Positions 7,500-24,151 of a stretch of DNA of 64,000 bases are shown here, in pieces. The notes beneath the pieces were generated by a model. The model was not told the origin of the DNA and did no database searches. It saw only the letters and a list, made by a program, of their open reading frames with translations. Origin of the DNA: Ruminococcus sp. FMBCY1 (GTDB lineage Bacteria > Bacillota > Clostridia > Oscillospirales > Acutalibacteraceae); the NCBI RefSeq assembly GCF_023921805.1, contig NZ_CP074197.1, forward strand, positions 1,674,001 through 1,738,000. Reading direction: 5' to 3'. The first letter of the stretch is position 1. Every line of letters begins with the position of its first letter. A program made the position numbers and the translations under genes.

Positions 7500-9644
<2,145 letters not shown>

Positions 9645-11593: not shown

Positions 11594-12691
11594 TCAACTG
11601 ATTACTCCGTTACAAACATTAAAAATTTTGCCGTGCTTAAGCTGCTCCTTGTTTGACTGCTCGCAGCAGGTTATAAAAACCTGGCAGTCATCAAGTTTAT
11701 TCAGTAAAAAATCCTGTCTTTTGGAATCAAGCTCGCTCATAACATCGTCGAGCAAAATTATCGGCTTTTCGCCCATTCTTTCAGACAAAACCGCCGCCTC
11801 GGCAAGTTTTAATGACAATACCGCACTTCTTTGCTGCCCTTGCGAGGCATAAAGTCTTGCATTTTTGCCGTTTATAAGTATCTCCGCATCATCTCTGTGC
11901 GCACCTTTTGTAGTACAGCCGTTTCTTATATCATCTGCCCTACTTTGTTCAAAAGTTTCGCATAATTTTTGGTGAATTTGCTCAATACTGTCGCCGTATT
12001 CGGCATTTGTAGTCGATAAATACCTGATTTCAAGCTGTTCTTTGCCGCCCGAAATGCCAAAATGGTATTCCGCAGCCCGTTTTTCGAGCATCTGGAGATA
12101 CTCCATTCTCTGTTTTATGAGTATAGCACCGTTCAAGAGCAGGGAATTGTCCCAGATTGAAAGAGTTTCTTCGAGTTTGGGATGCCTGTAAATATCTTTG
12201 AGCAAAGAATTTCTCTGATTAAGCGTGCGGTTGTACTTTGAAAGCACCACCGCATTTTTTAATTTTTCTCTGCAAATAGCGCTGTCAATGAATTTTCGCC
12301 TTTCGGACGGGCCTCTTTTAATTAAATTGAGATGTTCGGGCGAAAAAACGACCGCACAATATTTTTCAATCAGTGCCGCAGCCGAATTTTTGGCTACAGA
12401 GTTGATTTCTACCTGCTTTTTATTGCCTTTGAATTTTATAGAGGCGGTCTGCTCCCTGTCCTGTCCGAAAAATCGTACTTCGAGTTTTGCAAAAGGCTTG
12501 CCAAAACCTATAAGTTCGTTGTCCTTTGAACCACGAAACGAATGACCGCCGCAAAACATCCAAAAAGCCTCAAGCAGATTGGTTTTTCCCTGTGCGTTGT
12601 CGCCGTAAATTACATTCACACCGTCGCACGGGGTAATAATTGCGTCATCAAGATTTCTGTAATTTTCAAATTTCAGCGCAAGTACCTTCAA
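11594..12691 (-). CDS. recF: DNA replication and repair protein RecF
   Basis: SMC-like ATPase that loads RecA at gaps with RecO/RecR. The 365-residue protein has Walker A GDNAQGKT at residues 30-37, the ABC-type signature region SQGQQRSAVLSLKLAEA and Walker B PIILLDDVMSELD. It begins with TTG at 12691, with a GGGA site about 11 nt upstream; no better start is in frame. It follows yaaA by 17 nt in the dnaN-yaaA-recF-remB unit. Confidence 0.97.
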   Translation of the reverse strand: MKVLALKFENYRNLDDAIITPCDGVNVIYGDNAQGKTNLLEAFWMFCGGHSFRGSKDNELIGFGKPFAKLEVRFFGQDREQTASIKFKGNKKQVEINSVAKNSAAALIEKYCAVVFSPEHLNLIKRGPSERRKFIDSAICREKLKNAVVLSKYNRTLNQRNSLLKDIYRHPKLEETLSIWDNSLLLNGAILIKQRMEYLQMLEKRAAEYHFGISGGKEQLEIRYLSTTNAEYGDSIEQIHQKLCETFEQSRADDIRNGCTTKGAHRDDAEILINGKNARLYASQGQQRSAVLSLKLAEAAVLSERMGEKPIILLDDVMSELDSKRQDFLLNKLDDCQVFITCCEQSNKEQLKHGKIFNVCNGVIS

Positions 12692-12708
12692 AAAATATCA
12701 TTCCCAGC

Positions 12709-12921
12709 TCAGATAACGGTAATTTTTTCTCCGTCAAACTCTGCAAAGTCGCCTTTACGCATTTTTTTGCCACGCATAGTGCAAACCTCACCGTTTACGG
12801 TGACATCTCCGTTCTGAATTATCATTTTTGCCATTCCGCCCGTGTCGCAAAGACCTGCAAGCTTAAGCAAATCCTGTAATTTTATAAATTCTGTGTCAAT
12901 GCTGATTTTTTTATCCTTCAT
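12709..12921 (-). CDS. yaaA: S4-domain RNA-binding protein YaaA
   Basis: A 70-residue single S4 domain (residues about 12-68; [20 protein letters not shown] then GDVTVNGEV). The family binds structured RNA, and B. subtilis YaaA (RlbA) is linked to ribosome assembly. The gene overlaps the end of dnaN by 11 nt, so its translation is probably coupled to dnaN. Position between dnaN and recF is the standard Firmicutes arrangement. Confidence 0.93.
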
Positions 12922-14017
12922 TTGAAAGCCTCATTGGAACTACAATGCTCAAAAAGCTGTCGCCCTTCACCGGTTTGATAACCATCGGCTTAATCGGGCC
13001 GCTTAAAGCAAGTCTGATTTCATCGGTATCGCAATTTTTGAGAGCGTCAAGCAAATATTTGTTGTTAAAACCAATCTCAACTTTTTCACCCATAACCGAA
13101 ACTGCGATACTGTCGTTTGCTCTGCCGACTGCAGACGCACATGAAAGTTTGATTTCGTCATTATCAAAATTGCATCTTACAGGGCTTTGAATTCTGTCGT
13201 TGTTTAAAAGTGACATTCTTTCAACCGAGTTTATGATAACTCTTGTGTTTATAATGACCTCTGTTTTTACATCGGTCGGAATAGTTGTCTTGTAATCGAT
13301 AAAATTACCCTCGATAAGTCTTGAAATTACTCTGTAATTGTCAACCTTGAAGGTGATGTGTCTTTGACCTATGATAATATCTACATTTTGCTCGTCATCG
13401 CCCAAAAGTTTGAGGACTTCAAGCTGAGTTTTTCCCGGAACAACAAATTTATTTTTGCTTTCGGAATCTACATTTTCACTTCTGATTGCCATTCTGTAGC
13501 CGTCAATTGCTACGATTCTGAAAAGTCCGTCTTCAATTTCAAAAAGCGAACCCGTATAAATCGGCTTTGCGTTGTTATCGGATACGGCATATACTGTCTG
13601 CCTGATCATTTCACGCAGAGTTTTTGCATTTACGGTAATCATATCTGTCTGTTCAAAAGTAGGAAGATCCGGATATTCGATTGATGACATTCCCACAATT
13701 TGGTAATCTACATTTCCGCAGGTAATGTAAGTCACCATTCTTTCGTCGGTCTCAATCATAACGATTTCTTCCGGCAACTTTCTGACAATATCAAGAAAAA
13801 GCTTTGCACTGACAACAATTTCGCCTTCCTCCTGGATGGTAACATCAATGTCAGTTGTGATTCCTATTTCAAGATTGTAGCCTGATATATTTAGTGAATT
13901 GTCGTACGCTTTTATAAGCACACCTTCAAGAGCGGGTATTGCAGCTTTTGAAGATACTGCTCGTGACACATTTGACACAGCGTTAGCGAGGTCTGTTCGC
14001 AAGCACGAAATTTTCAA
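12911..14017 (-). CDS. dnaN: DNA polymerase III beta subunit (sliding clamp)
   Basis: Ring-shaped clamp that tethers the replicative polymerase and many partners to DNA. The 368-residue protein shows the three-fold repeated clamp domains (about 1-120, 130-245, 250-368) and the typical C-terminus with PMRL, part of the peptide-binding groove. It begins with TTG at 14017, 9 nt after GGAG. Immediately upstream is the origin-like intergenic region, as in B. subtilis. Confidence 0.97.
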
Positions 14018-14057
14018 GTGTAGCTCTCCTTTATGTAGTGATAATTTAAATATTTCG

Positions 14058-14090
14058 TAGTAGTAGTAGGGGGTGTTAAATTGTTAAAAA
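14058..14090 (-). promoter_or_regulatory. DnaA-trio-like unwinding element with adjoining variant boxes
   Basis: On the - strand: TTTTTAACA and AATTTAACA in tandem, then CCCC, then CTACTACTACTA, then AT-rich sequence leading to dnaN. DnaA-trios are triplets read 3'-GAT-5' on the complementary strand, which these CTA units give. The orientation (boxes, GC cluster, trios towards dnaN) equals B. subtilis. That the TTAACA motifs are the DnaA boxes here is my inference. Confidence 0.7.
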
Positions 14091-14144
14091 ATTGTAACTT
14101 TTCCGATTATTCCTTAAAAAAACCGTCCACAAAACACTCCACAG

Positions 14145-14178
14145 CCTTTTAACAGCTTTTACATCGTCTGTTAAAAGG
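14145..14178. repeat. Perfect 11-bp inverted repeat inside the origin region
   Basis: CCTTTTAACAG and CTGTTAAAAGG are separated by 12 nt and each arm holds a TTAACA motif. A facing pair of DnaA sites or a cruciform/hairpin are both possible. There is no T-run that would mark a terminator. Confidence 0.7.
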
Positions 14179-14784
14179 ACTTTTTCTTTCAACATAGGGT
14201 TGAAAATTGTTAGTGAAATGTTAATAAAAATGTTAATCGGATTCGGTATAAAAAAGCCTTTCAAAAGCTGTTTTTTATAAGATTTCCGACTGTACGGAAA
14301 AATCCTGCCACATTTTTGATTAAAAAATCCGTAAATTTTACGCTTTAAAAATTGTAAATTCAAAGCCTGTTTTTTTAGATTTTTCTATACTATTATATAT
14401 AGGCAAAAATCTCCTCTTTTTCAGGCTCATAAAAATACGGATTTTTTCCTGATTTTTTTGCTGTGAACACAGCTTTTTAGGGTGTTCCCTCAACTACGGT
14501 GAAAATAAGTCCGAAATTGCATTAATTAGTGCAATTTACGGAAAAATATTTCAAAGTTTTTTACAAATAAATTTTTAATATTTTTGAACATACTAAAAAT
14601 GTTGAAATTATGGAAAGGCATTAACAGGTTGTGTTAAATCTGTATGCTTTCAAGTATTGACCAAACGGCTGAAAGCTAAGCATTTAAGCCGAAATTTAAG
14701 TGTTTACAAATGTTACAAAACTGTAATGTTAATAATGTTAAAAGGTTAAAATCGTGTAACCAAATATGTTGAAAACCCGTTGAA

Positions 14785-16110
14785 CTACCTGTCACGGATA
14801 TTTTTGATGGTATCGTCGATTATCTCTTTGATCTTGCGGTCATTCTGCATCATTTTCTTAACCTTTTTAACGGTGTAGATAACGGTGGAGTAATGTCTGC
14901 CGCCGAATTCTTCTCCGATGTTTGCCATTGAGAGTGTTGTAAGCTCTCTTGAAATATAAATTGCAATGTGTCTGGCATTGCTGATGTTTGCACTTCTGTT
15001 GTTTTCAGAACGGATAGCCTCGGGAGTAACGCCGAAAGTACGGGAAACTTCCTCGATAATGCGCTCTACGGTAACCTCCGGCGGAGTATCGTTATTAAGA
15101 ATGTCTGAAATAACCTCCTGAACCGAAGAAACTGTAATTTTCTCCTGATTTACAAGGTTTTTTGCCTTTAATTTTTTAACTGTGCCCTCAAGCTGACGAA
15201 TATTAGCCTTGATTTTAGAAGCAATGTACTCGCAAACCTCATTTGAAAGGTCAAGATCGAGAAGCTCTGCCTTTCTTTTAATGATAGCGATTCTTGTTTC
15301 TACATCAGGCGGCTGAACATCGGCAATGAGGTCGGACTCAAATCTTGAACGAAGTCGGTCGTCAAGGGTTTTAATTTCCTTTGGCGGACGGTCGGATGTA
15401 AGAACGATCTGCTTGTGAGCGTCATAAAGAGCATTGAAAGTATGGAAAAATTCTTCCTGTGTACTTTCCTTACCGCCGATAAACTGAACATCATCGACGA
15501 GCAGAATATCTGCTTGTCTGTATTTTTTTCTGAACTCGCTCATTCGTGCCATACGAAGTGACTCGATAAGTTCGTTGGTAAAATCGTCACCTTTTATGTA
15601 ACAAATAGTTTTTTCGGGTGAATTTTTCTTGATTTCGTTGCCGATTGCATAAAGCAAATGAGTTTTGCCAAGACCAGAATTTCCGTATAAAAACAGCGGA
15701 TTGTAGGCATTGGCGGGATTTGTGGCAACTGCAAGACAGGCTGCATGAGCAAATTTGTTTGATGAGCCGACAATAAAAGTATCAAAAGTATATTCATAAC
15801 TTATGTCTGTGATTTCCGCATTTGCAGCTGCCTGTTGTTCCTCTTTGACAGAGATTTCTTCGGGAATTTTCATTTCAATAACGAAAATCTGACCGAAGAC
15901 GGCTTCAAAAGCCTCGTTAAGTAGAGAAAGATAGCAGCGAGTTATAGTCTGACGATGAAAATCGTTAGGAACTAAAATTACAGCTTTGTTCTTGTCAAAA
16001 TCAAGTTCGATAGGCTCGATTCTGCTGATCCAAGTGTTGTAAGCGACATCGGTAATTTTAGTTTTGCAATAACTGCATATGATTCCCCACGCTTCTTCAA
16101 AAGATTCCAT
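14785..16110 (-). CDS. dnaA: Chromosomal replication initiator DnaA
   Basis: AAA+ initiator that binds and melts the origin. From the ATG at 16110 the protein has 441 residues: domain I (1-80), a short linker, AAA+ domain with Walker A GNSGLGKT (143-150) and Walker B LLVDDVQF (203-210), and DNA-binding domain IV (about 345-441). The 18-nt longer open frame is rejected because its ATG is part of the GGGAGGG ribosome site. Domain IV is odd: the recognition helix reads GGRHYSTV (403-410) where nearly all DnaA proteins have GGRDH[TS]TV, and the basic loop reads NARH where PRQ is common. This may change box specificity. Confidence 0.97.
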   Translation of the reverse strand: MESFEEAWGIICSYCKTKITDVAYNTWISRIEPIELDFDKNKAVILVPNDFHRQTITRCYLSLLNEAFEAVFGQIFVIEMKIPEEISVKEEQQAAANAEITDISYEYTFDTFIVGSSNKFAHAACLAVATNPANAYNPLFLYGNSGLGKTHLLYAIGNEIKKNSPEKTICYIKGDDFTNELIESLRMARMSEFRKKYRQADILLVDDVQFIGGKESTQEEFFHTFNALYDAHKQIVLTSDRPPKEIKTLDDRLRSRFESDLIADVQPPDVETRIAIIKRKAELLDLDLSNEVCEYIASKIKANIRQLEGTVKKLKAKNLVNQEKITVSSVQEVISDILNNDTPPEVTVERIIEEVSRTFGVTPEAIRSENNRSANISNARHIAIYISRELTTLSMANIGEEFGGRHYSTVIYTVKKVKKMMQNDRKIKEIIDDTIKNIRDR

Positions 16111-16180
16111 ATACGACTTCCCTCCCATAATAAATACGGCAATATCGCCATATTACCCCATAGTAAATCTATTCTATTAT

Positions 16181-16209
16181 ATTATAGAACACTTCCTAAA
16201 AAAAATCAA
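16181..16209 (-). promoter_or_regulatory. dnaA promoter
   Basis: On the - strand TTGATT, 17-nt spacer, TATAAT, leaving a leader of about 70 nt to the dnaA ATG. The leader carries a small dyad (ATATGGCGATATTGCCGTAT). No TTAACA or TTATNCACA motif is near, so box-mediated autoregulation is not obvious. Confidence 0.75.
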
Positions 16210-16536
16210 TCTTTTTATTACTCTAAAAATAATGGCTTTTAAGGTACTTTTAAAGCCCGAGAGAGGATTTTTATTTAATTTTTGACTTTAAAAGACTCTT
16301 TTTTAAAACTTAGAAATACGCTTAATTAAAACTAAAAGAGAAAACCAAAAATTTTATAATTGCTTTGAAACGGAAAAAATAAAAAATCGGATGTTTATTT
16401 TTCTTTCAATTTTCTTTTTATATTAACTTTTATATTAATAAATATTATCAGCAATCTTTTTCTATATATAAGTATATATAAGCAAACCGTAAAACCGCTC
16501 TGCTTTACAAATTTTAAAAAAACTTTTTATTTTTTG
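16210..16536. other. AT-rich spacer between the divergent dnaA and rpmH promoters
   Basis: About 330 bases with very high AT content and no ORF with a ribosome site. In B. subtilis this position holds part of the bipartite origin, but I see no DnaA-box-like cluster of either the canonical or the TTAACA type here. Confidence 0.5.
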
Positions 16537-16565
16537 TTGACTATAAAGAAAAATTAATATATAAT
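16537..16565 (+). promoter_or_regulatory. rpmH promoter
   Basis: TTGACT, 17-nt spacer, TATAAT, 41 nt upstream of the rpmH start. A near-consensus sigma-A promoter, fitting a ribosomal protein gene. Confidence 0.85.
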
Positions 16566-16606
16566 GCTATATTGCAAGGTTATATATTGAAGGGAGGGTT
16601 TTCAGT

Positions 16607-16741
16607 ATGTTGAGAACTTATCAGCCAAAGAAGCTCCACAGAAAGAAGGAGCACGGCTTCAGAAAGAGAATGTCTACAGCCAACGGTAGAAAAGTATTGG
16701 CTAGAAGAAGAGCTAAAGGTAGAAAAAGGTTGTCTTACTAA
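16607..16741 (+). CDS. rpmH: 50S ribosomal protein L34
   Basis: 44-residue, highly basic L34. It starts [19 protein letters not shown] and ends GRKRLSY, the full family length with the invariant RTYQP and HGFRKRM motifs. A strong GGGAGGG site lies 8 nt before the ATG. As in almost all bacteria it opens the rpmH-rnpA-yidD-yidC-jag operon, divergent from dnaA. Confidence 0.98.
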
Positions 16742-16747
16742 AGAACA

Positions 16748-16778
16748 GGCCACTTTATTACAGTGGTCTTTCTTTGTT
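16748..16778 (+). terminator. Hairpin between rpmH and rnpA
   Basis: GCCACT pairs with AGTGGT over a 6-nt loop, followed by CTTTCTTTG. It may partly terminate after rpmH, giving more rpmH than rnpA transcript, a known pattern for this operon. Confidence 0.55.
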
Positions 16779-16814
16779 GTTTGCGGCTTTTACTTTGCTT
16801 AGGTGGTTTTAATT

Positions 16815-17153
16815 TTGAGTGACTTCATCACTTTAAAGGACAATAGGGATTTTTCCAGACTTTACAGGAGGGGAAAATCCTTTGTAAGTCCTGTTTTGGT
16901 AACATATGTTATAAAAAATAAATCCGATAACCTGCGTTTTGGAATAACTACGGGCAAAAAAGTCGGAAAAGCGGTTAAGCGCACCCGTGCAAGGCGTGTG
17001 ATTCGTGCCGCATATTATCAGCTTTACAATGATTTGAAACCCGGTTATGATTTTGTCTTTGTGGCAAGGTCGAGGACTCCTTTTGTAAAATCTCAAAAGG
17101 TATATGACGCTATGAAAAATCATATGGAGTCTGCCGGCGTTCTGAAAAAGTAA
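16815..17153 (+). CDS. rnpA: Ribonuclease P protein component
   Basis: Basic protein subunit that helps the RNase P RNA mature tRNA 5' ends. The 112-residue protein has the family signature in [16 protein letters not shown] (the RNR-type helix) and the N-terminal F-SRLYRRG motif. The frame is open from a GTG at 16803, but AGGTGG there is the ribosome site and a TTG at 16815 follows at 8 nt, matching the family N-terminus. The RNA partner gene rnpB is not in this window. Confidence 0.95.
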
Positions 17154-17157
17154 TATT

Positions 17158-17397
17158 ATGAAAAGAATTTTAATTCTGCTGATAAAATTTTATAAAGCTG
17201 CAATCTCTCCGCATCTGCCAAAAAGTTGCAAGTATGAGCCTACCTGCTCTCAATACGGAATTGAGGCGATAGAGCGCTTTGGCGCATTAAAGGGTACCGC
17301 TCTGACCATATGGCGGATACTGCGCTGTAATCCTTTTTCAAAGGGTGGCTACGATCCTGTCCCGGAAAAAACGGACAAGCCAAGAAAAATTAAGTGA
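17158..17397 (+). CDS. yidD: Membrane protein insertion efficiency factor YidD
   Basis: 79-residue membrane-associated protein that aids YidC-dependent insertion. The family core is visible: [28 protein letters not shown] with conserved Cys residues, then the GGYDPVP motif. It starts 4 nt after rnpA with only a weak ribosome site, so coupling to rnpA translation is likely. The next gene is yidC. Confidence 0.95.
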
Positions 17398-17405
17398 GGT
17401 AGCTT

Positions 17406-18398
17406 ATGGCAAATATATTTGGATTTTTTGGAAGTATTCTCGGCTATGTTCTTTGGGCTGCTTTCTACTTTCTAAAAGATTTCGGTCTTTCAATAGTTGT
17501 ATTTACTATTGTAATCAGACTTATTTTGTTCCCATTTACTGTCAAGCAACAAAAATCTATGGCAGGCACAATGAGAATGCAAAGAAAACAAAAGGAGCTC
17601 CAGGAAAAATACGCCAATAACAAGGTTAAGCTCCAGGAGGAAATGAACAAGCTTTACGAAAAAGAGGGAGTAAAGCCTATGGGCGGTTGCCTTACAATGA
17701 TAATTCCTCTCCTTGTAATGCTCGGTATTTTTTATGCCGTTGCATATCCTCTTACAAACACACTTCATCTTAACTCGGACACAGTAAACAGTGCTGTTTC
17801 GTATATGAACACAATTCCGGGTTACACAATCACTACAAATGCTACTTATCAGCAAATCGAGCTTATCAGGGTGTTCCCAAGCATTATGAACACTGAAACA
17901 ATTCAGGGACTGTTCTCAGCTGCGGACTGCCAGCAGATAATCGATTTTGCAAACGGATTTAATATGATGGGAATCAACCTTCTTACAATTCCAAAGGATA
18001 TGGGTATTTTCTCATGGTACTCACTCATTCCTGTACTTTGTTTTGTATCATATGTTGGTTCACAGTTAGTAATGCAGAGAATCAATAAGGCTCAGATGGC
18101 ACAGCAGCAGGGTTGTCTAAAGGTAATGCTGTATGTAATGCCGTTATTCACAGCCTATATCGCATATACCGTACCGGCTGCGGTAGGTTTTTACTGGATT
18201 TGCTCATCAGTAATTGCGTTTATCCAATCACTTGTTATTGCAAAGTTCTTTACTCCGGTAAGCTTTACTGCAAAAGAAGAGGCTCGTCACATTGCTCTTA
18301 TGGAGCTAAACGAGGCAAAAGTTCCTTATGTTTACTCACCTGTTGAACAGAAGACAAGCTCTAAGTCAAACGGCAACGGAAAAAAGAAAAAGAAGTAA
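17406..18398 (+). CDS. yidC: Membrane protein insertase YidC/OxaI
   Basis: Inserts membrane proteins alone or with SecYEG. The 330-residue protein is the short Gram-positive type, beginning directly with a membrane helix. The conserved Arg sits in the hydrophilic groove helix (VIRLILFPFTVKQQ, about residue 38), a charged coiled-coil hairpin follows (about 55-90), and further helices lie near 95-120, 205-225 and 240-285. It lacks the lipoprotein Cys seen in B. subtilis SpoIIIJ. The Lys-rich tail (KKKKK at the end) can contact ribosomes. Confidence 0.96.
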   Translation: MANIFGFFGSILGYVLWAAFYFLKDFGLSIVVFTIVIRLILFPFTVKQQKSMAGTMRMQRKQKELQEKYANNKVKLQEEMNKLYEKEGVKPMGGCLTMIIPLLVMLGIFYAVAYPLTNTLHLNSDTVNSAVSYMNTIPGYTITTNATYQQIELIRVFPSIMNTETIQGLFSAADCQQIIDFANGFNMMGINLLTIPKDMGIFSWYSLIPVLCFVSYVGSQLVMQRINKAQMAQQQGCLKVMLYVMPLFTAYIAYTVPAAVGFYWICSSVIAFIQSLVIAKFFTPVSFTAKEEARHIALMELNEAKVPYVYSPVEQKTSSKSNGNGKKKKK

Positions 18399-18416
18399 TT
18401 GAAATAGGTGAATACT

Positions 18417-19205
18417 ATGATTAGAGAAGCAATCGGCGTTGGCGAAACTGAAGTTCTCGCCCTTGAAGACGCAAAAAGACAGCTCGGTATTGACGAATCC
18501 GAGATTGTTGAGTTTGAGGTTATTCAGCGTGCCGAGAAAAAGAAATTCGGTCTTTTTGGCGGTGCACCCGCTAAGGTAAAAATTACTCTTAAGGCAGGCC
18601 CGGCCGAAACAGCGGAAGAATTTTTAAGCAATGTACTTAAGAATATGAAGCTTGAGTCGGTTTCTATCAATAAAAAAGAAATTGAAAACGGCGTAGAGTT
18701 TGACCTTGAGGGTGAAAATGTCGGTTTTGTAATCGGCAGAAGAGGCGAAACACTCGACGCATTGCAGTACCTTACAAGCCTTGTTGCAAATCACGCTGAC
18801 AATTCGTACTTTAAGGTTACTGTAAACACAGGCGACTACCGTGAAAAGAGAGAAAAAACTCTTGAAATTCTCGGCAGAAAGCTTGCTTTCAAGGCAATTA
18901 AGACAGGCAGAAAAACAAGTCTTGAGCCGATGAACCCGTATGAAAGAAGAATTATTCATACTTCTGTACAGAAGGTGAACGGTGCTATTTCATGGAGCGA
19001 GGGCGAAAATGCAAACCGTCATGTTGTAATAGGACCTGATCCAAAGTACAAGAGATATCAGAGAAACAGCAATTCAGGTTACAACAGAGGAAGAGGAGGC
19101 AGACGCCCGTACAACAACAACTCTGTTAATAACGAGGTAAATCCCGACAGAAAGCCCCTTAACGAAGGAAGCCTTGACGGACTTTACGGCAGAATTGATA
19201 AATAA
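18417..19205 (+). CDS. jag: Jag/KhpB RNA-binding protein
   Basis: RNA-binding protein that works with KhpA in Firmicutes cell division and sporulation-linked control (family knowledge). The 262-residue protein has the N-terminal Jag domain (1-50, with KKKFGLFGG), a KH domain with the GxxG loop VIGRRGETLDALQYL, and a C-terminal R3H domain with EPMNPYERRIIH. A Gly/Arg/Asn-rich tail of about 55 residues follows, which is longer than usual and likely disordered. The ATG at 18417 is 8 nt after AGGTG; the GTG upstream is part of that site. Confidence 0.93.
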   Translation: MIREAIGVGETEVLALEDAKRQLGIDESEIVEFEVIQRAEKKKFGLFGGAPAKVKITLKAGPAETAEEFLSNVLKNMKLESVSINKKEIENGVEFDLEGENVGFVIGRRGETLDALQYLTSLVANHADNSYFKVTVNTGDYREKREKTLEILGRKLAFKAIKTGRKTSLEPMNPYERRIIHTSVQKVNGAISWSEGENANRHVVIGPDPKYKRYQRNSNSGYNRGRGGRRPYNNNSVNNEVNPDRKPLNEGSLDGLYGRIDK

Positions 19206-19213
19206 TGATTTTT

Positions 19214-19250
19214 AAAGAAAGGGGGCATTTTTGCTCCCTTTTGTTTTTTA
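19214..19250 (+). terminator. Terminator after jag
   Basis: AAAGGGGGCA pairs with TGCTCCCTTT (one G-T pair) over a T4 loop and is followed by TGTTTTTTATTT. A clear intrinsic terminator separating jag from mnmE. Confidence 0.85.
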
Positions 19251-19279
19251 TTTAAAACCATTTTAAAGAGAGTGATTTT

Positions 19280-20644
19280 ATGTCTGACACTATTGCTGCT
19301 ATCAGCACGGCGCAGGGTGAGGGAGGTATCTCGGTTATTCGTATTTCCGGTGATTCTGCGTTTACTGTATGCGATAAAATTTTTAAAGGCATCAATAATA
19401 AAAAACTTGCCGATATGAAAGGCTATACCGCATCTTTCGGAAAAATTGTAAGTGACGGCGAAGAAATTGACGAGGCGGTTGCTCTTGTTTTTCGTGAACC
19501 TTTAAGCTATACGGGCGAAAATGTTGTCGAGCTTTCATGCCACGGCGGTATCTATATTACAAAACTTGTACTTCGTGCGGTGCTTGATGCAGGCGCAGTT
19601 CCGGCACAGGCAGGCGAATTTACAAAACGGGCATTTTTAAACGGAAAAATCGACCTTTCCGAGGCGGAGGCTGTAATCGACATCATTTCCGCAAAATCCC
19701 GTTCCGCCGCAAGGGCGGCTCTTTGTGTAAAAGAGGGTGCGGTTCGCAACAAAATTGACGAAGTAAAAAATCTCTTGCTTTCAACGGCGGCACATCTTTC
19801 CGCATGGGCAGACTATCCCGAAGAAGATATTGCCGAAGTAACCGACGAACAGCTTTACGATTCGTTTGATGTCAGCATTGCAATACTTGACGGACTTATT
19901 TCGAGTTATGACAGCGGACAGGCGGTAAAGCAGGGTATAGACACGGTAATTGCAGGCAGACCGAATGTAGGAAAAAGCACTCTTATGAACTTGCTTTCGG
20001 GTTGCGAGCGCAGTATTGTTACCGACATACCCGGCACAACCAGAGATATTATTGAAGACACGGTAATTGTCGGAGATGTTATTCTTAGGTTAAGCGACAC
20101 TGCGGGACTTAGAACAACCAATGACAAGGTAGAAAAAATCGGAGTTGACAGAGCAAAGCACAGATTAAAGCAGTGCGGACTTTTGCTTGCGGTGTTTGAC
20201 TATAACCGCAGTCTTGACGATGACGATAAAGAATTGATAGAATCGGCAGGCGAAGTGCCGTGCATTGCAATAATCAACAAAATCGATTTGGACAAACAGC
20301 TTGACACAGAGTACATTGAAAGCAAGATAAAGAATGTGGTTTATCTTTCGGCAAAAAGCGGAGATGGCAGAGAAGAGCTTGTAAAAGCGGTTGAAGATAT
20401 TGCGGGAATGGATAATTTTAACCCGAGCGAGGGTGTACTTTCCAATGAAAGACAGAGACAGGCGGTACTGAACTCCCTAAACTCTGTAAAAGACGCAAAA
20501 AATGCACTTGAAATCGGACTTACCTATGATGCAATCACTGTAAGCATTGAAGAAGCAATTACAAGTTTGCTTGAACTCACGGGTGAGAGAACAAGTGATG
20601 AAGTTGTAGACAGAGTATTCCATAATTTTTGCGTGGGCAAGTAA
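19280..20644 (+). CDS. mnmE: tRNA modification GTPase MnmE
   Basis: With MnmG it installs carboxymethylaminomethyl or aminomethyl groups on wobble U34 of tRNAs. The 454-residue protein has the N-terminal tetrahydrofolate-binding domain (AAISTAQGEGGISVIRISG), a G domain with G1 GRPNVGKST and G3 DTAG, plus NKID, and the C-terminal CVGK motif with the catalytic Cys. Full length for the family. The partner mnmG follows after a repeat-containing gap. Confidence 0.97.
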   Translation: MSDTIAAISTAQGEGGISVIRISGDSAFTVCDKIFKGINNKKLADMKGYTASFGKIVSDGEEIDEAVALVFREPLSYTGENVVELSCHGGIYITKLVLRAVLDAGAVPAQAGEFTKRAFLNGKIDLSEAEAVIDIISAKSRSAARAALCVKEGAVRNKIDEVKNLLLSTAAHLSAWADYPEEDIAEVTDEQLYDSFDVSIAILDGLISSYDSGQAVKQGIDTVIAGRPNVGKSTLMNLLSGCERSIVTDIPGTTRDIIEDTVIVGDVILRLSDTAGLRTTNDKVEKIGVDRAKHRLKQCGLLLAVFDYNRSLDDDDKELIESAGEVPCIAIINKIDLDKQLDTEYIESKIKNVVYLSAKSGDGREELVKAVEDIAGMDNFNPSEGVLSNERQRQAVLNSLNSVKDAKNALEIGLTYDAITVSIEEAITSLLELTGERTSDEVVDRVFHNFCVGK

Positions 20645-20667
20645 TCTTGTTATCGAAAAGCGAAAGT

Positions 20668-20757
20668 CAGAGTAAATTATGGTTTAATGTGCAAATTAAG
20701 CGAAATAATTTTAAAATTTAGGTCAAGCCTTTTTAAAGGTTGACCAAACTTTTATAA
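20668..20757. repeat. Hairpin repeat family, short copy 2
   Basis: Outer arm AGTAAATTATGGTTTAATG (20670-20688), then the core AAAATTTAGGTCAAGCC with AAAGGTTGACCAAACTTTTA. It lies between the co-directional mnmE and mnmG genes, where the hairpin could reduce read-through. Compare the other copies of the family. Confidence 0.85.
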
Positions 20758-20786
20758 TTTATTAACCCTAAAAAGGAATGAAATAT

Positions 20787-22652
20787 ATGAAATATTTTGC
20801 AGGAGAATATGATGTAGCAGTTATCGGTGCGGGTCACGCAGGCATTGAGGCGGCTTTGGCTGCCGCCAGACTTGGCTGTAAAACTGCTGTTTTTACCATA
20901 AATATGGATGCCGTCGGCAACTGCCCTTGCAATCCGTCAATCGGCGGAACGGCAAAAGGTCATCTTGTTCGTGAAATTGACGCACTCGGCGGCGAAATGG
21001 GCAAGACTGCCGACGAATGTTTTTTGCAGTCCCGTATGCTCAACCGTGGTAAAGGTCCTGCCGTTCACTCATTGAGAGCGCAGATTGACCGCCGCAAATA
21101 TTCCACCGTTATGAAACACAAACTTGAATTGCAGGAAAATCTTGAATTAAGACAGGCGGAAATCGTTGAAATAGAAAAGACAGAGGACGGTTACGACCTT
21201 ACCACAAGAATGTTAGCGGTTTTTCATTGCAAGACGGTTGTTATTGCCACAGGCACATACCTCGGCGGCAGAATTTTTGTGGGCGAAGTATCATACGAAA
21301 GCGGTCCTGACGGCATTTTTCCTGCGTCTTTTCTTGGTGCAAGTCTTAAAAAACTCGGCTTGCCGTTAAGAAGATTTAAGACAGGTACTCCTGCCAGAGT
21401 TTTAAGAAATTCCATTGATTATACAGACCTTGAAGTACAAAAGGGTGACGAACCGCCGCAGCCTTTTTCGTATGAAACCGAAAGTTTGGGCGAGAACAAG
21501 GTTGACTGCTACATAAGCTGGACAAATGACGAAACCAAGCAGATTATCCTTGAAAATATTCACCGTTCACCGCTTTACGCAGGTAAAATCGAGGGTATAG
21601 GCCCTCGTTACTGCCCGAGTTTTGAAGATAAAATAATGAGGTTTAAGGATAAGCCAAGACATCAGCTTTTTATTGAGCCGTGCGGTCTTGACACAGAAGA
21701 AATGTATTTGCAGGGAATGAGCTCATCACTCCCCGAGGAGGTACAGCTTAAGTTTTATCACACCATAAAAGGTCTTGAAAACTGCGTAATTATGCGCCCT
21801 GCCTATGCCATTGAATATGACTGCGTTGACCCGACAGCTATGCTTGCAACGCTTGAATTTAAAGATTTTCCAAACCTTTTCGGTGCGGGTCAGTTTAACG
21901 GCAGTTCGGGTTACGAAGAAGCGGCGGCACAGGGACTTGTTGCCGGAATTAATGCCGCTTTGAAAGTCCTCGGAAAATCTCCGCTCATTCTTGACAGAGC
22001 AGGCTCTTATATCGGCACTCTTGTAGATGACCTTGTAACCAAGGGTGCAAACGAGCCTTACAGAATGATGACATCGAGAAGTGAGTACCGCTTGATTCTC
22101 CGTCAAGACAATGCGGACGAAAGACTTACTCCGCTCGGCCACAAAATCGGACTTATCAGCGAAGAAAGATACCAAAAATTTCTTAACAAACAGGAGCTTA
22201 AAAAGCAGGAAATAAAGCGACTTAAGACAACCGTAATTTCTCCGACAGAAGAAGTAAACAAAATTCTTACAGAGCGTGGCACAAGTGAAATTACCACGGG
22301 AGTACATCTTATTGACCTTATAAAAAGACCGCAGCTTGACTACAAGTCGCTTGAAAGTATAGACACAGGCAGACCGAAACTTGACCCGAACATTTTTGAG
22401 CAGGTTGAAGTGGAAATCAAGTACGAAGGCTACATTTCAAAGCAATTAAAGCAGGTTGAGCAGATGCGCAAACTTGAAAACCGCCGACTGCCTGATGATT
22501 TTGACTACAGAACAATTAAGGGATTAAGACTTGAGGCGCAGGAAAAGCTGAATAAAATCAAACCGTTGAGCATTGGACAGGCATCCAGAATTTCGGGAGT
22601 TTCGCCTGCCGACATCAGCGTTTTGCTCATTTGGCTTGCACAGAATAAATAA
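20787..22652 (+). CDS. mnmG: tRNA uridine 5-carboxymethylaminomethyl modification enzyme MnmG (GidA)
   Basis: FAD- and NADH-dependent partner of MnmE in wobble-uridine modification. The 621-residue protein shows the N-terminal dinucleotide-binding motif GAGHAGIEAA, the signature CNPSIGGTAKGHLVREIDAL, and the family C-terminal helical domain (SRISGVSPADISVL-like region near the end). The annotated frame also has an ATG at 20778 directly touching AAGGA; the ATG at 20787 has proper spacing (9 nt). rsmG follows by 12 nt. Confidence 0.97.
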   Translation: MKYFAGEYDVAVIGAGHAGIEAALAAARLGCKTAVFTINMDAVGNCPCNPSIGGTAKGHLVREIDALGGEMGKTADECFLQSRMLNRGKGPAVHSLRAQIDRRKYSTVMKHKLELQENLELRQAEIVEIEKTEDGYDLTTRMLAVFHCKTVVIATGTYLGGRIFVGEVSYESGPDGIFPASFLGASLKKLGLPLRRFKTGTPARVLRNSIDYTDLEVQKGDEPPQPFSYETESLGENKVDCYISWTNDETKQIILENIHRSPLYAGKIEGIGPRYCPSFEDKIMRFKDKPRHQLFIEPCGLDTEEMYLQGMSSSLPEEVQLKFYHTIKGLENCVIMRPAYAIEYDCVDPTAMLATLEFKDFPNLFGAGQFNGSSGYEEAAAQGLVAGINAALKVLGKSPLILDRAGSYIGTLVDDLVTKGANEPYRMMTSRSEYRLILRQDNADERLTPLGHKIGLISEERYQKFLNKQELKKQEIKRLKTTVISPTEEVNKILTERGTSEITTGVHLIDLIKRPQLDYKSLESIDTGRPKLDPNIFEQVEVEIKYEGYISKQLKQVEQMRKLENRRLPDDFDYRTIKGLRLEAQEKLNKIKPLSIGQASRISGVSPADISVLLIWLAQNK

Positions 22653-22664
22653 TCGGAGGAATTT

Positions 22665-23375
22665 ATGATTAAGAATTTGCTCCAAAATTATATAAAAGAT
22701 TACAAAATCACACTCACGGAAAATCAGTACGAGCAGTTTCAAAAATATTTTGAATTGCTTGCAGAGTGGAACGAAAAAATGAATCTTACCGCAATTACAG
22801 ACGAGAGCGGTGTGGCACTCAAGCATTTTGCCGACAGCCTTAGCTTGCTCAACTTTGTTGACATTCCGCAGAACAGCAGTCTTGCCGATGTCGGTACGGG
22901 TGCGGGTTTTCCGGGTGTTGTTCTGAAAATTGCCAGACCTGACATAAAACTTACCCTTATAGACAGCCTTAATAAAAGACTTGTTTTCTTGAATGAGGTT
23001 TGTTCTCAGCTCGGCATAGACGCAGAGCTTATCCATAGCAGGGCAGAGGACGGCGCAAGAGATGAAAAGCTGAGAGAAAGTTTTGATTTTGTTGCGTCAA
23101 GAGCGGTTGCACGAATGAATGTTTTGAGTGAATACTGCCTGCCGTATGTAAAGGTGGGAGGTGCGTTCTGTGCAATGAAGGGCGCACAGGCAAACGAGGA
23201 ATTTAAAGAATCTTTAAATGCAATTAACACCCTCGGCGGTAAACTTGAAAACAAATATTTCTTTGAATTACCCGAAAACGGCGGCGAAAGAGCAATTGCG
23301 GTAGTCAGAAAAGTTAAAAACACACCGCAAAAATACCCCCGTCAATCGGGAAAAATTAAGGCAAAGGCTTTGTAA
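22665..23375 (+). CDS. rsmG: 16S rRNA (guanine527-N7)-methyltransferase RsmG
   Basis: Methylates G527 of 16S rRNA with SAM; loss gives low-level streptomycin resistance in several bacteria. The 236-residue class I methyltransferase has motif I DVGTGAGFPG, and WNEKMNLTAI in the N-terminal helix set. A strong GGAGG site precedes the ATG. It closes the canonical origin cluster; noc/parA/parB, which usually follow, lie 16 kb away here. Confidence 0.97.
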   Translation: MIKNLLQNYIKDYKITLTENQYEQFQKYFELLAEWNEKMNLTAITDESGVALKHFADSLSLLNFVDIPQNSSLADVGTGAGFPGVVLKIARPDIKLTLIDSLNKRLVFLNEVCSQLGIDAELIHSRAEDGARDEKLRESFDFVASRAVARMNVLSEYCLPYVKVGGAFCAMKGAQANEEFKESLNAINTLGGKLENKYFFELPENGGERAIAVVRKVKNTPQKYPRQSGKIKAKAL

Positions 23376-23377
23376 TT

Positions 23378-24151
23378 ATGGAAAATAATTTTTATAACAT
23401 TTTTGATTCGCACGCACATTACGATGACAAATGGTTTGACGAGGACAGAGAAGTTTTGCTTTCCTCAATGAAAGAGAACGGCGTGTGCGGTATTGTAAAC
23501 AACTCTGTTGATTTAAAAACCGCAAAAGTCTGTATAGATTTTTGCGAAAAATACGATTTTATGTACGGTGCGGTTGGATTTCACCCCGAAAATCTCGAAG
23601 ATATGCCAAATGATTATCTTGACCGGGTTGCAGAGCTTTTAAAGCACAAAAAAATTGTAGCTGTCGGAGAAACGGGACTTGATTATCATTGGGATATTCC
23701 TAAAGATTTGCAGAACAGAGTTTTTGAAGAACAGATAAAACTTTCGCTTGATGTGAATATGCCGATAATCGTGCATGACAGAGAGGCGCACGGCGATACT
23801 CTCAATTATTTGAGAAAGTACAAACCTAAGGCGCTTGTTCACTGCTTTTCGGGCAGTGTTGAGATGATGCGTGAAGTGATGCGCTACGGAAGTTACATCA
23901 GTCTTGGCGGAGTTGTTACTTTTAAAAATGCAAGACACAGCGTTGAGGTTGCAAAAGAAGTGCCGATTGACAGACTTTTGCTTGAAACCGATTGTCCGTA
24001 TATGTCACCCGTACCGTTCCGTGGCAAAAGGTGCGACAGTACAATGATAAAATATACGGCGGAAAAAATTGCTGAAATCAGAAATACAGATGTGCAGGAG
24101 CTTTTAAATATCACCGCAGAAAATGCAAAAAGATTTTACGGAATAGATTAA
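23378..24151 (+). CDS. tatD: TatD-family metal-dependent deoxyribonuclease
   Basis: TIM-barrel metallohydrolase with 3'-5' exonuclease activity in characterised members. The 257-residue protein has the metal-ligand series DSHAHYDD (HxH), VGETGLDYHW (Glu), VHDREAH and HCFSG (His), and ETDCPY (Asp). It starts 2 nt after the rsmG stop, suggesting co-translation. Confidence 0.94.
   Translation: MENNFYNIFDSHAHYDDKWFDEDREVLLSSMKENGVCGIVNNSVDLKTAKVCIDFCEKYDFMYGAVGFHPENLEDMPNDYLDRVAELLKHKKIVAVGETGLDYHWDIPKDLQNRVFEEQIKLSLDVNMPIIVHDREAHGDTLNYLRKYKPKALVHCFSGSVEMMREVMRYGSYISLGGVVTFKNARHSVEVAKEVPIDRLLLETDCPYMSPVPFRGKRCDSTMIKYTAEKIAEIRNTDVQELLNITAENAKRFYGID

Follow-up and report, generated by a model that had tools for sequence, protein, structure and literature searches.

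The gap between dnaA and dnaN of Ruminococcus sp. FMBCY1, a likely replication origin, has an ordinary Bacillus-type unwinding layout but unusual DnaA boxes and an unusual initiator recognition helix. The window analyzed is a 64,000-nucleotide stretch (NZ_CP074197.1, positions 1,674,001 to 1,738,000) in whose own numbering all coordinates are given; the gap occupies 14018–14784 (767 bp), bordered by two minus-strand genes. The DnaA–box pair is generally regarded as one of the most conserved protein–DNA pairs in bacteria. Comparison with related genomes points to a stepwise rewiring that we consider probable: within an origin of the Bacillus unwinding type, the boxes would have drifted from TTATCCACA to TTTTTAACA- and TTTTCAACA-like forms, and their predicted reader is a DnaA with changes at six listed contact positions of its recognition helix.

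The gap was assigned as the likely origin (oriC) from a sign change in GC skew and a cluster of TTAACA motifs. Skew passes from −0.088 (12001–14000) to +0.053 (14001–16000) and is mostly positive beyond; along the 2.376-Mb contig, twenty 20-kb samples and two stretches of the window gave negative values from 0.72 to 1.68 Mb, except at 1.56 Mb (+0.005), and positive values elsewhere. TTAACA occurs ten times over both strands of the gap. Under a first-order Markov model fitted to the gap, the mean is 1.78 and the maximum 8, none of 2000 simulations reaching ten; the densest other 767-bp stretch, among 400 kb of chromosome samples and the remainder of the window, holds six. No TTATCCACA box lies in 14018–14784 at zero or one mismatch, and three sites carry two mismatches. 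The motif enrichment, the missing canonical box and the skew change all bear out the initial annotation of this DNA, which was made from the letters alone. Its prediction that box-search programs would overlook the origin holds for strict searches; the looser E. coli consensus TTWTNCACA, with one mismatch allowed, returns eight sites.

The unwinding layout that the same annotation had likened to that of B. subtilis is present. The minus strand carries TTTTTTAACAATTTAACA, then CCCC, then four CTA trios, reading TTTTTTAACAATTTAACACCCC-CTA-CTA-CTA-CTA-CG with the trios on the dnaN side. The distal box TTTTTAACA (14082–14090, minus) and the proximal box AATTTAACA (14074–14082, minus) stand in the registers of B. 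subtilis boxes 6 and 7, followed by the CCCC spacer (14070–14073, minus) and the DnaA-trios (14058–14069, minus); the AT-rich stretch past the trios (14018–14057) is likely the first to be unwound, as read from its sequence. The window shares with B. subtilis, as described in the published excerpts, a site between dnaA and dnaN, two co-oriented boxes in tandem, a spacer rich in C and CTA trios, all with the same spacing and direction. Measured against the basal unwinding system (BUS), the region has four trios with a middle A, at least three being required, after a C/G-rich spacer and a box pair spaced and ordered as in Bacillus relatives. It departs in box sequence: its boxes carry three and five mismatches to TTATCCACA, beyond the two (for the better box) and four that the published search, as excerpted, tolerates in species without a motif of their own. 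We read this departure as a limit of the search rule, and the origin would work like a BUS.

The putative reader is encoded by dnaA (14785–16128, minus), which has Pfam matches to Bac_DnaA (1e-69) and Bac_DnaA_C (6.4e-24). Its model superposes on B. subtilis DnaA (8btg), and domains I, III and IV are present in order with known folds. As the single full-length copy in the genome, beside dnaN (12911–14017, minus; TTG start; three DNA_pol3_beta domains), the protein is still a DnaA; the second match in the genome is weak and partial. The domain IV signature given by the initial annotation as D-H-[TS]-T is replaced by H-Y-S-T (codons 14884–14895, minus), which aligns with E. coli positions 433–436 (1j1v) and marks the start of the recognition helix (407–423 in the AlphaFold2 model). 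These are residues 412–415 of the 447-residue open reading frame, or 406–409, as originally numbered, from the probable start at 16110, which gives the 441 residues listed for this protein; the reported change of PRQ to ARH is likewise there. In the contact list excerpted from PMC5043019, the base-contacting residues of E. coli DnaA include D, H and T of D-H-[TS]-T. Six listed positions are altered (P423A, D433H, H434Y, T435S, L438I and H439Y), and R399 and R432 are kept. By alignment, the Ala codon at the P423 position lies at 14923–14925, and I438 and Y439, where E. coli has L and H, are encoded at 14875–14880, all on the minus strand.

To compare boxes across DnaA classes, loci were assembled from named genomes (80), the genus (50, besides the window), the family (88, from 144 matching genomes) and the order (86, from 96). 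They yielded 305 DnaA genes and 283 usable gaps (22 of 305 genes had none); 44 of the 283 gaps had no anchor. An earlier set had lost 9 of 219 loci in which dnaN was not next and 23 of 210 with a trio score below 10, a cut set by us, leaving 187 of 210 anchored. Anchored boxes were located from the trios, independently of box sequence, the nearer box ending 5 nt before the first TAC. Excess was measured against each gap's own dinucleotide make-up.

Box sequence differs between classes, including at position 6. The anchored 9-mer is ATATCCACA in genomes with DHTT and P423, TTTTCAACA in those with DHST and ATTTCAACA in those with His-Tyr at 433–434 (H-Y), and the information at position 6 falls in that order from 0.92 to 0.69 to 0.29 bits. 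TTATCCACA is retained in 33 of 50 DHTT/P423 gaps, and DHTT gaps lacking P423 carry TTTTCCACA in 18 of 22. DHST gaps are rich in TTCAACA (224 vs 19.2 expected) and TTCCACA (168 vs 9.8), and 18 of 121 still have TTATCCACA; H-Y gaps hold TTCAACA (82 vs 6.8), TTTAACA (63 vs 14.3) and TTCCACA (47 vs 2.6), with TTATCCACA in 2 of 51. Outside the anchored boxes, matrices built from them return more sites than simulation does in each of the nine class–matrix pairs.

Associations between residues and box positions suggest, at the level of sequence, a possible code by which residues 433 and 434 read the box. T at position 5 (T5) is found in 38 of 71 anchored boxes of the H-Y class vs 23 of 98 of the DHST class (p = 9e-5, uncorrected for kinship). 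A regression over 282 genomes, which took in tree covariance and A+T content alongside residue terms (20 overall), linked H433 to T5 over C5 (p = 0.023, uncorrected) and N433 to A6 over C6 (p = 0.0036, which does not survive Bonferroni correction); in the regression for G at position 7 (G7), Y434 gave p = 0.031 and S435 p = 0.011. Within the order, the 12 N433 genomes have 70 A6 and 9 C6 sites and the 125 D433 genomes 414 and 371, at gap A+T contents of 0.72 for N433 vs 0.64 for D433. TTCCGCA is present in 8 of 19 H433-H434 gaps vs 16 of 193 D-H gaps; H433-H434 relatives such as L200, L212, L310 and L318 have TTTTCCGCA boxes, with G at position 7. On the tree of 305 DnaAs, the 433–434 pair changed at least 39 times by parsimony. 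The H-Y effect appears quantitative and modest, chiefly a shift from C5 to T5 with few independent changes behind it.

In the proposed mechanism, domain IV would dock DnaA on the tandem TTTTTAACA/AATTTAACA boxes, and DnaA would then load along the trios toward dnaN and open the AT-rich stretch. Whereas the layout, the register and the class differences are observed directly, the binding of these sites, a causal role of the residues in base choice and the order of steps are inferred. C6-retaining DHTT relatives that lack P423 already show the loss of A at position 3, which would have come first; the fixed C at position 6 would have been lost next, as in DHST and Y439 relatives; and D433H with H434Y would then have raised the frequency of T5. 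A high A+T content would have favored the same drift.

Several results weigh against this stepwise rewiring. The strongest predictor of A6 over C6 is gap A+T content (p = 1.4e-11), and composition drift could therefore explain much; neither H433 (p = 0.77) nor Y434 (p = 0.31) is significant for that trait. The p-values for H433 and N433 quoted above are the smallest of their regressions among the 20 residue terms, and neither passes 0.0025. Independent-pair tests of H-Y, Y434, N433, H433-H434, P423, Y439, A401, A406 and T440 against box traits had too few informative pairs, and among the results listed none reached a median p below 0.05; the directions were mostly as expected, with exceptions such as S435 with T5, which was opposite. 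S435 was rejected as a cause of C6 loss (nine independent pairs, 2.6 vs 2.4). The H-Y matrix performs best on H-Y gaps only narrowly (ratio 3.9 vs 3.5 for the other two), the canonical matrix being itself in excess there (129 vs 36.7). In the window gap, five sites reach 7.5 bits with an H-Y class matrix trained without the window, vs a simulated mean of 2.1 and a maximum of 6. Finally, the eight genomes nearest the window, in which the TTAACA excess is clearest (TTTAACA 24 vs 4.0 expected; TTCCACA nearly gone, 1 vs 0.5), were chosen by identity after the counts had been seen and do not form one clade.

Base composition alone is the alternative that fares best, although we regard it as unlikely: a DnaA that kept its old preference, or a tolerant one, would have let the boxes slide to weak AT-rich forms, the helix changes being neutral or unrelated. 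Beyond the A+T term and the excess of canonical-matrix sites on H-Y gaps, it gains from the presence of TTAACA in relatives with an intact D433-H434. Against it, box excess persists over the gaps' own dinucleotide make-up, and the N433 association survives inclusion of A+T; moreover, at matching A+T (0.713 and 0.714) the TTAACA share of the nearest relatives, a group picked after the counts, differs from that of the remaining H-Y genomes.

The initial annotation had instead proposed that initiator and boxes changed together, D433H/H434Y and TTAACA forming one matched switch. Initiator and boxes have both changed, and the proposed pairing is partly supported. A single matched event is not supported in that form; the independent-pair tests are too thin to decide, and H433 and Y434 are not tied to A6 over C6. 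The higher T5 frequency in H-Y boxes speaks for such a switch, as does the lead of TTAACA over other cores in most of the nearest relatives; the window's 14-genome clade (support 94) has TTAACA 47, TCAACA 32, TCCACA 20 and TTCACA 7, vs 18, 32, 17 and 1 in its DHST sister clade. Across the 305 DnaA genes, however, most of the box drift is seen without the H-Y pair. TTAACA is found in DHST gaps of the family (16 of 21) and genus (8 of 9), which hold TTATCCACA in 1 of 21 and 0 of 9, and in the DHST clade adjoining the window's clade (9 of 11 gaps), and the other 41 H-Y gaps favor TTCAACA (73) over TTTAACA (39). As the commonest core, TTAACA is confined to the genomes nearest the window and does not extend across the H-Y class. 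The switch was therefore rejected as the main account, and we judge it quite improbable. The annotation had itself named relatives with GGRDHTTV and TTAACA clusters as evidence that would count against it; the data come close to this, the TTAACA-bearing relatives being DHST rather than DHTT. Use of the TTAACA cluster by another origin-binding protein is very improbable, as two copies stand exactly in box register by the trios, where canonical relatives have TTATCCACA-type boxes.

The classes also differ in which tandem box is better. Judged by core matches at the anchored positions, 19 of the 39 DHTT/P423 genomes have the better box far from the trios and none has it near, whereas 23 of the 48 H-Y genomes have it near and 4 far; with a fixed 8-nt spacing, the counts become 16 to 6 for far over near and 24 to 4 for near over far, respectively. 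The tree offers too few independent pairs to bear on this contrast. In the excerpted unwinding-system work (PMC8287927), weight is given to the far, upstream box, which in B. subtilis is nearer the consensus and is the required one, in contrast to the trio-proximal better box of the H-Y class. More speculatively, the order may amount to a natural experiment in initiator specificity. Residue 433 would have switched again and again between Asp, Asn and His (with Tyr at 434), and the box would have followed a simple code in which C6 or A6 goes with Asp, A6 with Asn and T5 with His, or G7 where H434 is adjacent; the better box would have shifted to the trios, yielding ready-made orthogonal DnaA–origin pairs.

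Besides B. subtilis, two known systems come nearest. Epsilonproteobacterial origins, as excerpted from PMC5043019, share a T5 box change (core TTCAC) and an altered helix 5 with changes at DnaA 435, 438 and 439, including serine at 435 and tyrosine at 439 (7%). There, the 433–434 pair is described as highly conservative and C6 is retained in the core, whereas here 433–434 change and position 6 is A, C or G; with ten TTAACA and one TTCACA, the window gap does not show T5 with C6 kept. The C. difficile oriC, as excerpted from PMC7561715, is also clostridial with a trio-bearing unwinding site in the dnaA–dnaN gap, but the listed contact residues are conserved and the boxes are of the TTWTNCACA type. 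No description of boxes like those reported here was found in the openly licensed literature under Ruminococcus, Faecalibacterium/Oscillospir/Clostridia, TTATCAACA or position 6, which is not proof of absence. The significance lies in the lability of 433–434 within one order while the unwinding layout stays constant: many natural initiator–origin pairs become available for matching residues to the bases they read, and for learning if the stronger box has to lie far from the trios. Searches restricted to strict TTATCCACA matches will miss some origins in these gut bacteria.

Two further observations concern genus relatives. A 12-genome DHST clade (L001, L003, L098, L101, L104, L107, L110, L112, L115–L117 and L121) carries K438 and PRQ; nested among the H-Y genomes in the DnaA tree, it looks like a reversion from H-Y to D-H. 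In L091 and L094, both trio-side boxes are TTGACA (TTTTTGACATTTTGACAT), with G at position 6.

The remaining box-like sites of the window gap, scored with the H-Y matrix as above, are three copies of CTTTTAACA (14146–14154, plus; 14169–14177 and 14736–14744, minus; 7.4 bits each), two of TTATTAACA (14219–14227 and 14727–14735, minus; 6.6 bits each), CTTTCAACA (14186–14194, plus; 9.0 bits), TTTTCAACA (14767–14775, minus; 10.6 bits) and the top-scoring ATTTCAACA (14600–14608, minus; 11.1 bits). Upstream of dnaA (16129–16802), no box was found at 7 bits with the H-Y matrix or 8 bits with the canonical one, the chance level not having been simulated. The surroundings (7500–9449, 11594–12691 and 16803–24151) have an apparently origin-like gene order, comprising with dnaN and dnaA what we take, from the look of the open reading frames, to be gyrB, recF, rnpA, yidC, jag, mnmE, mnmG, rsmG and tatD.
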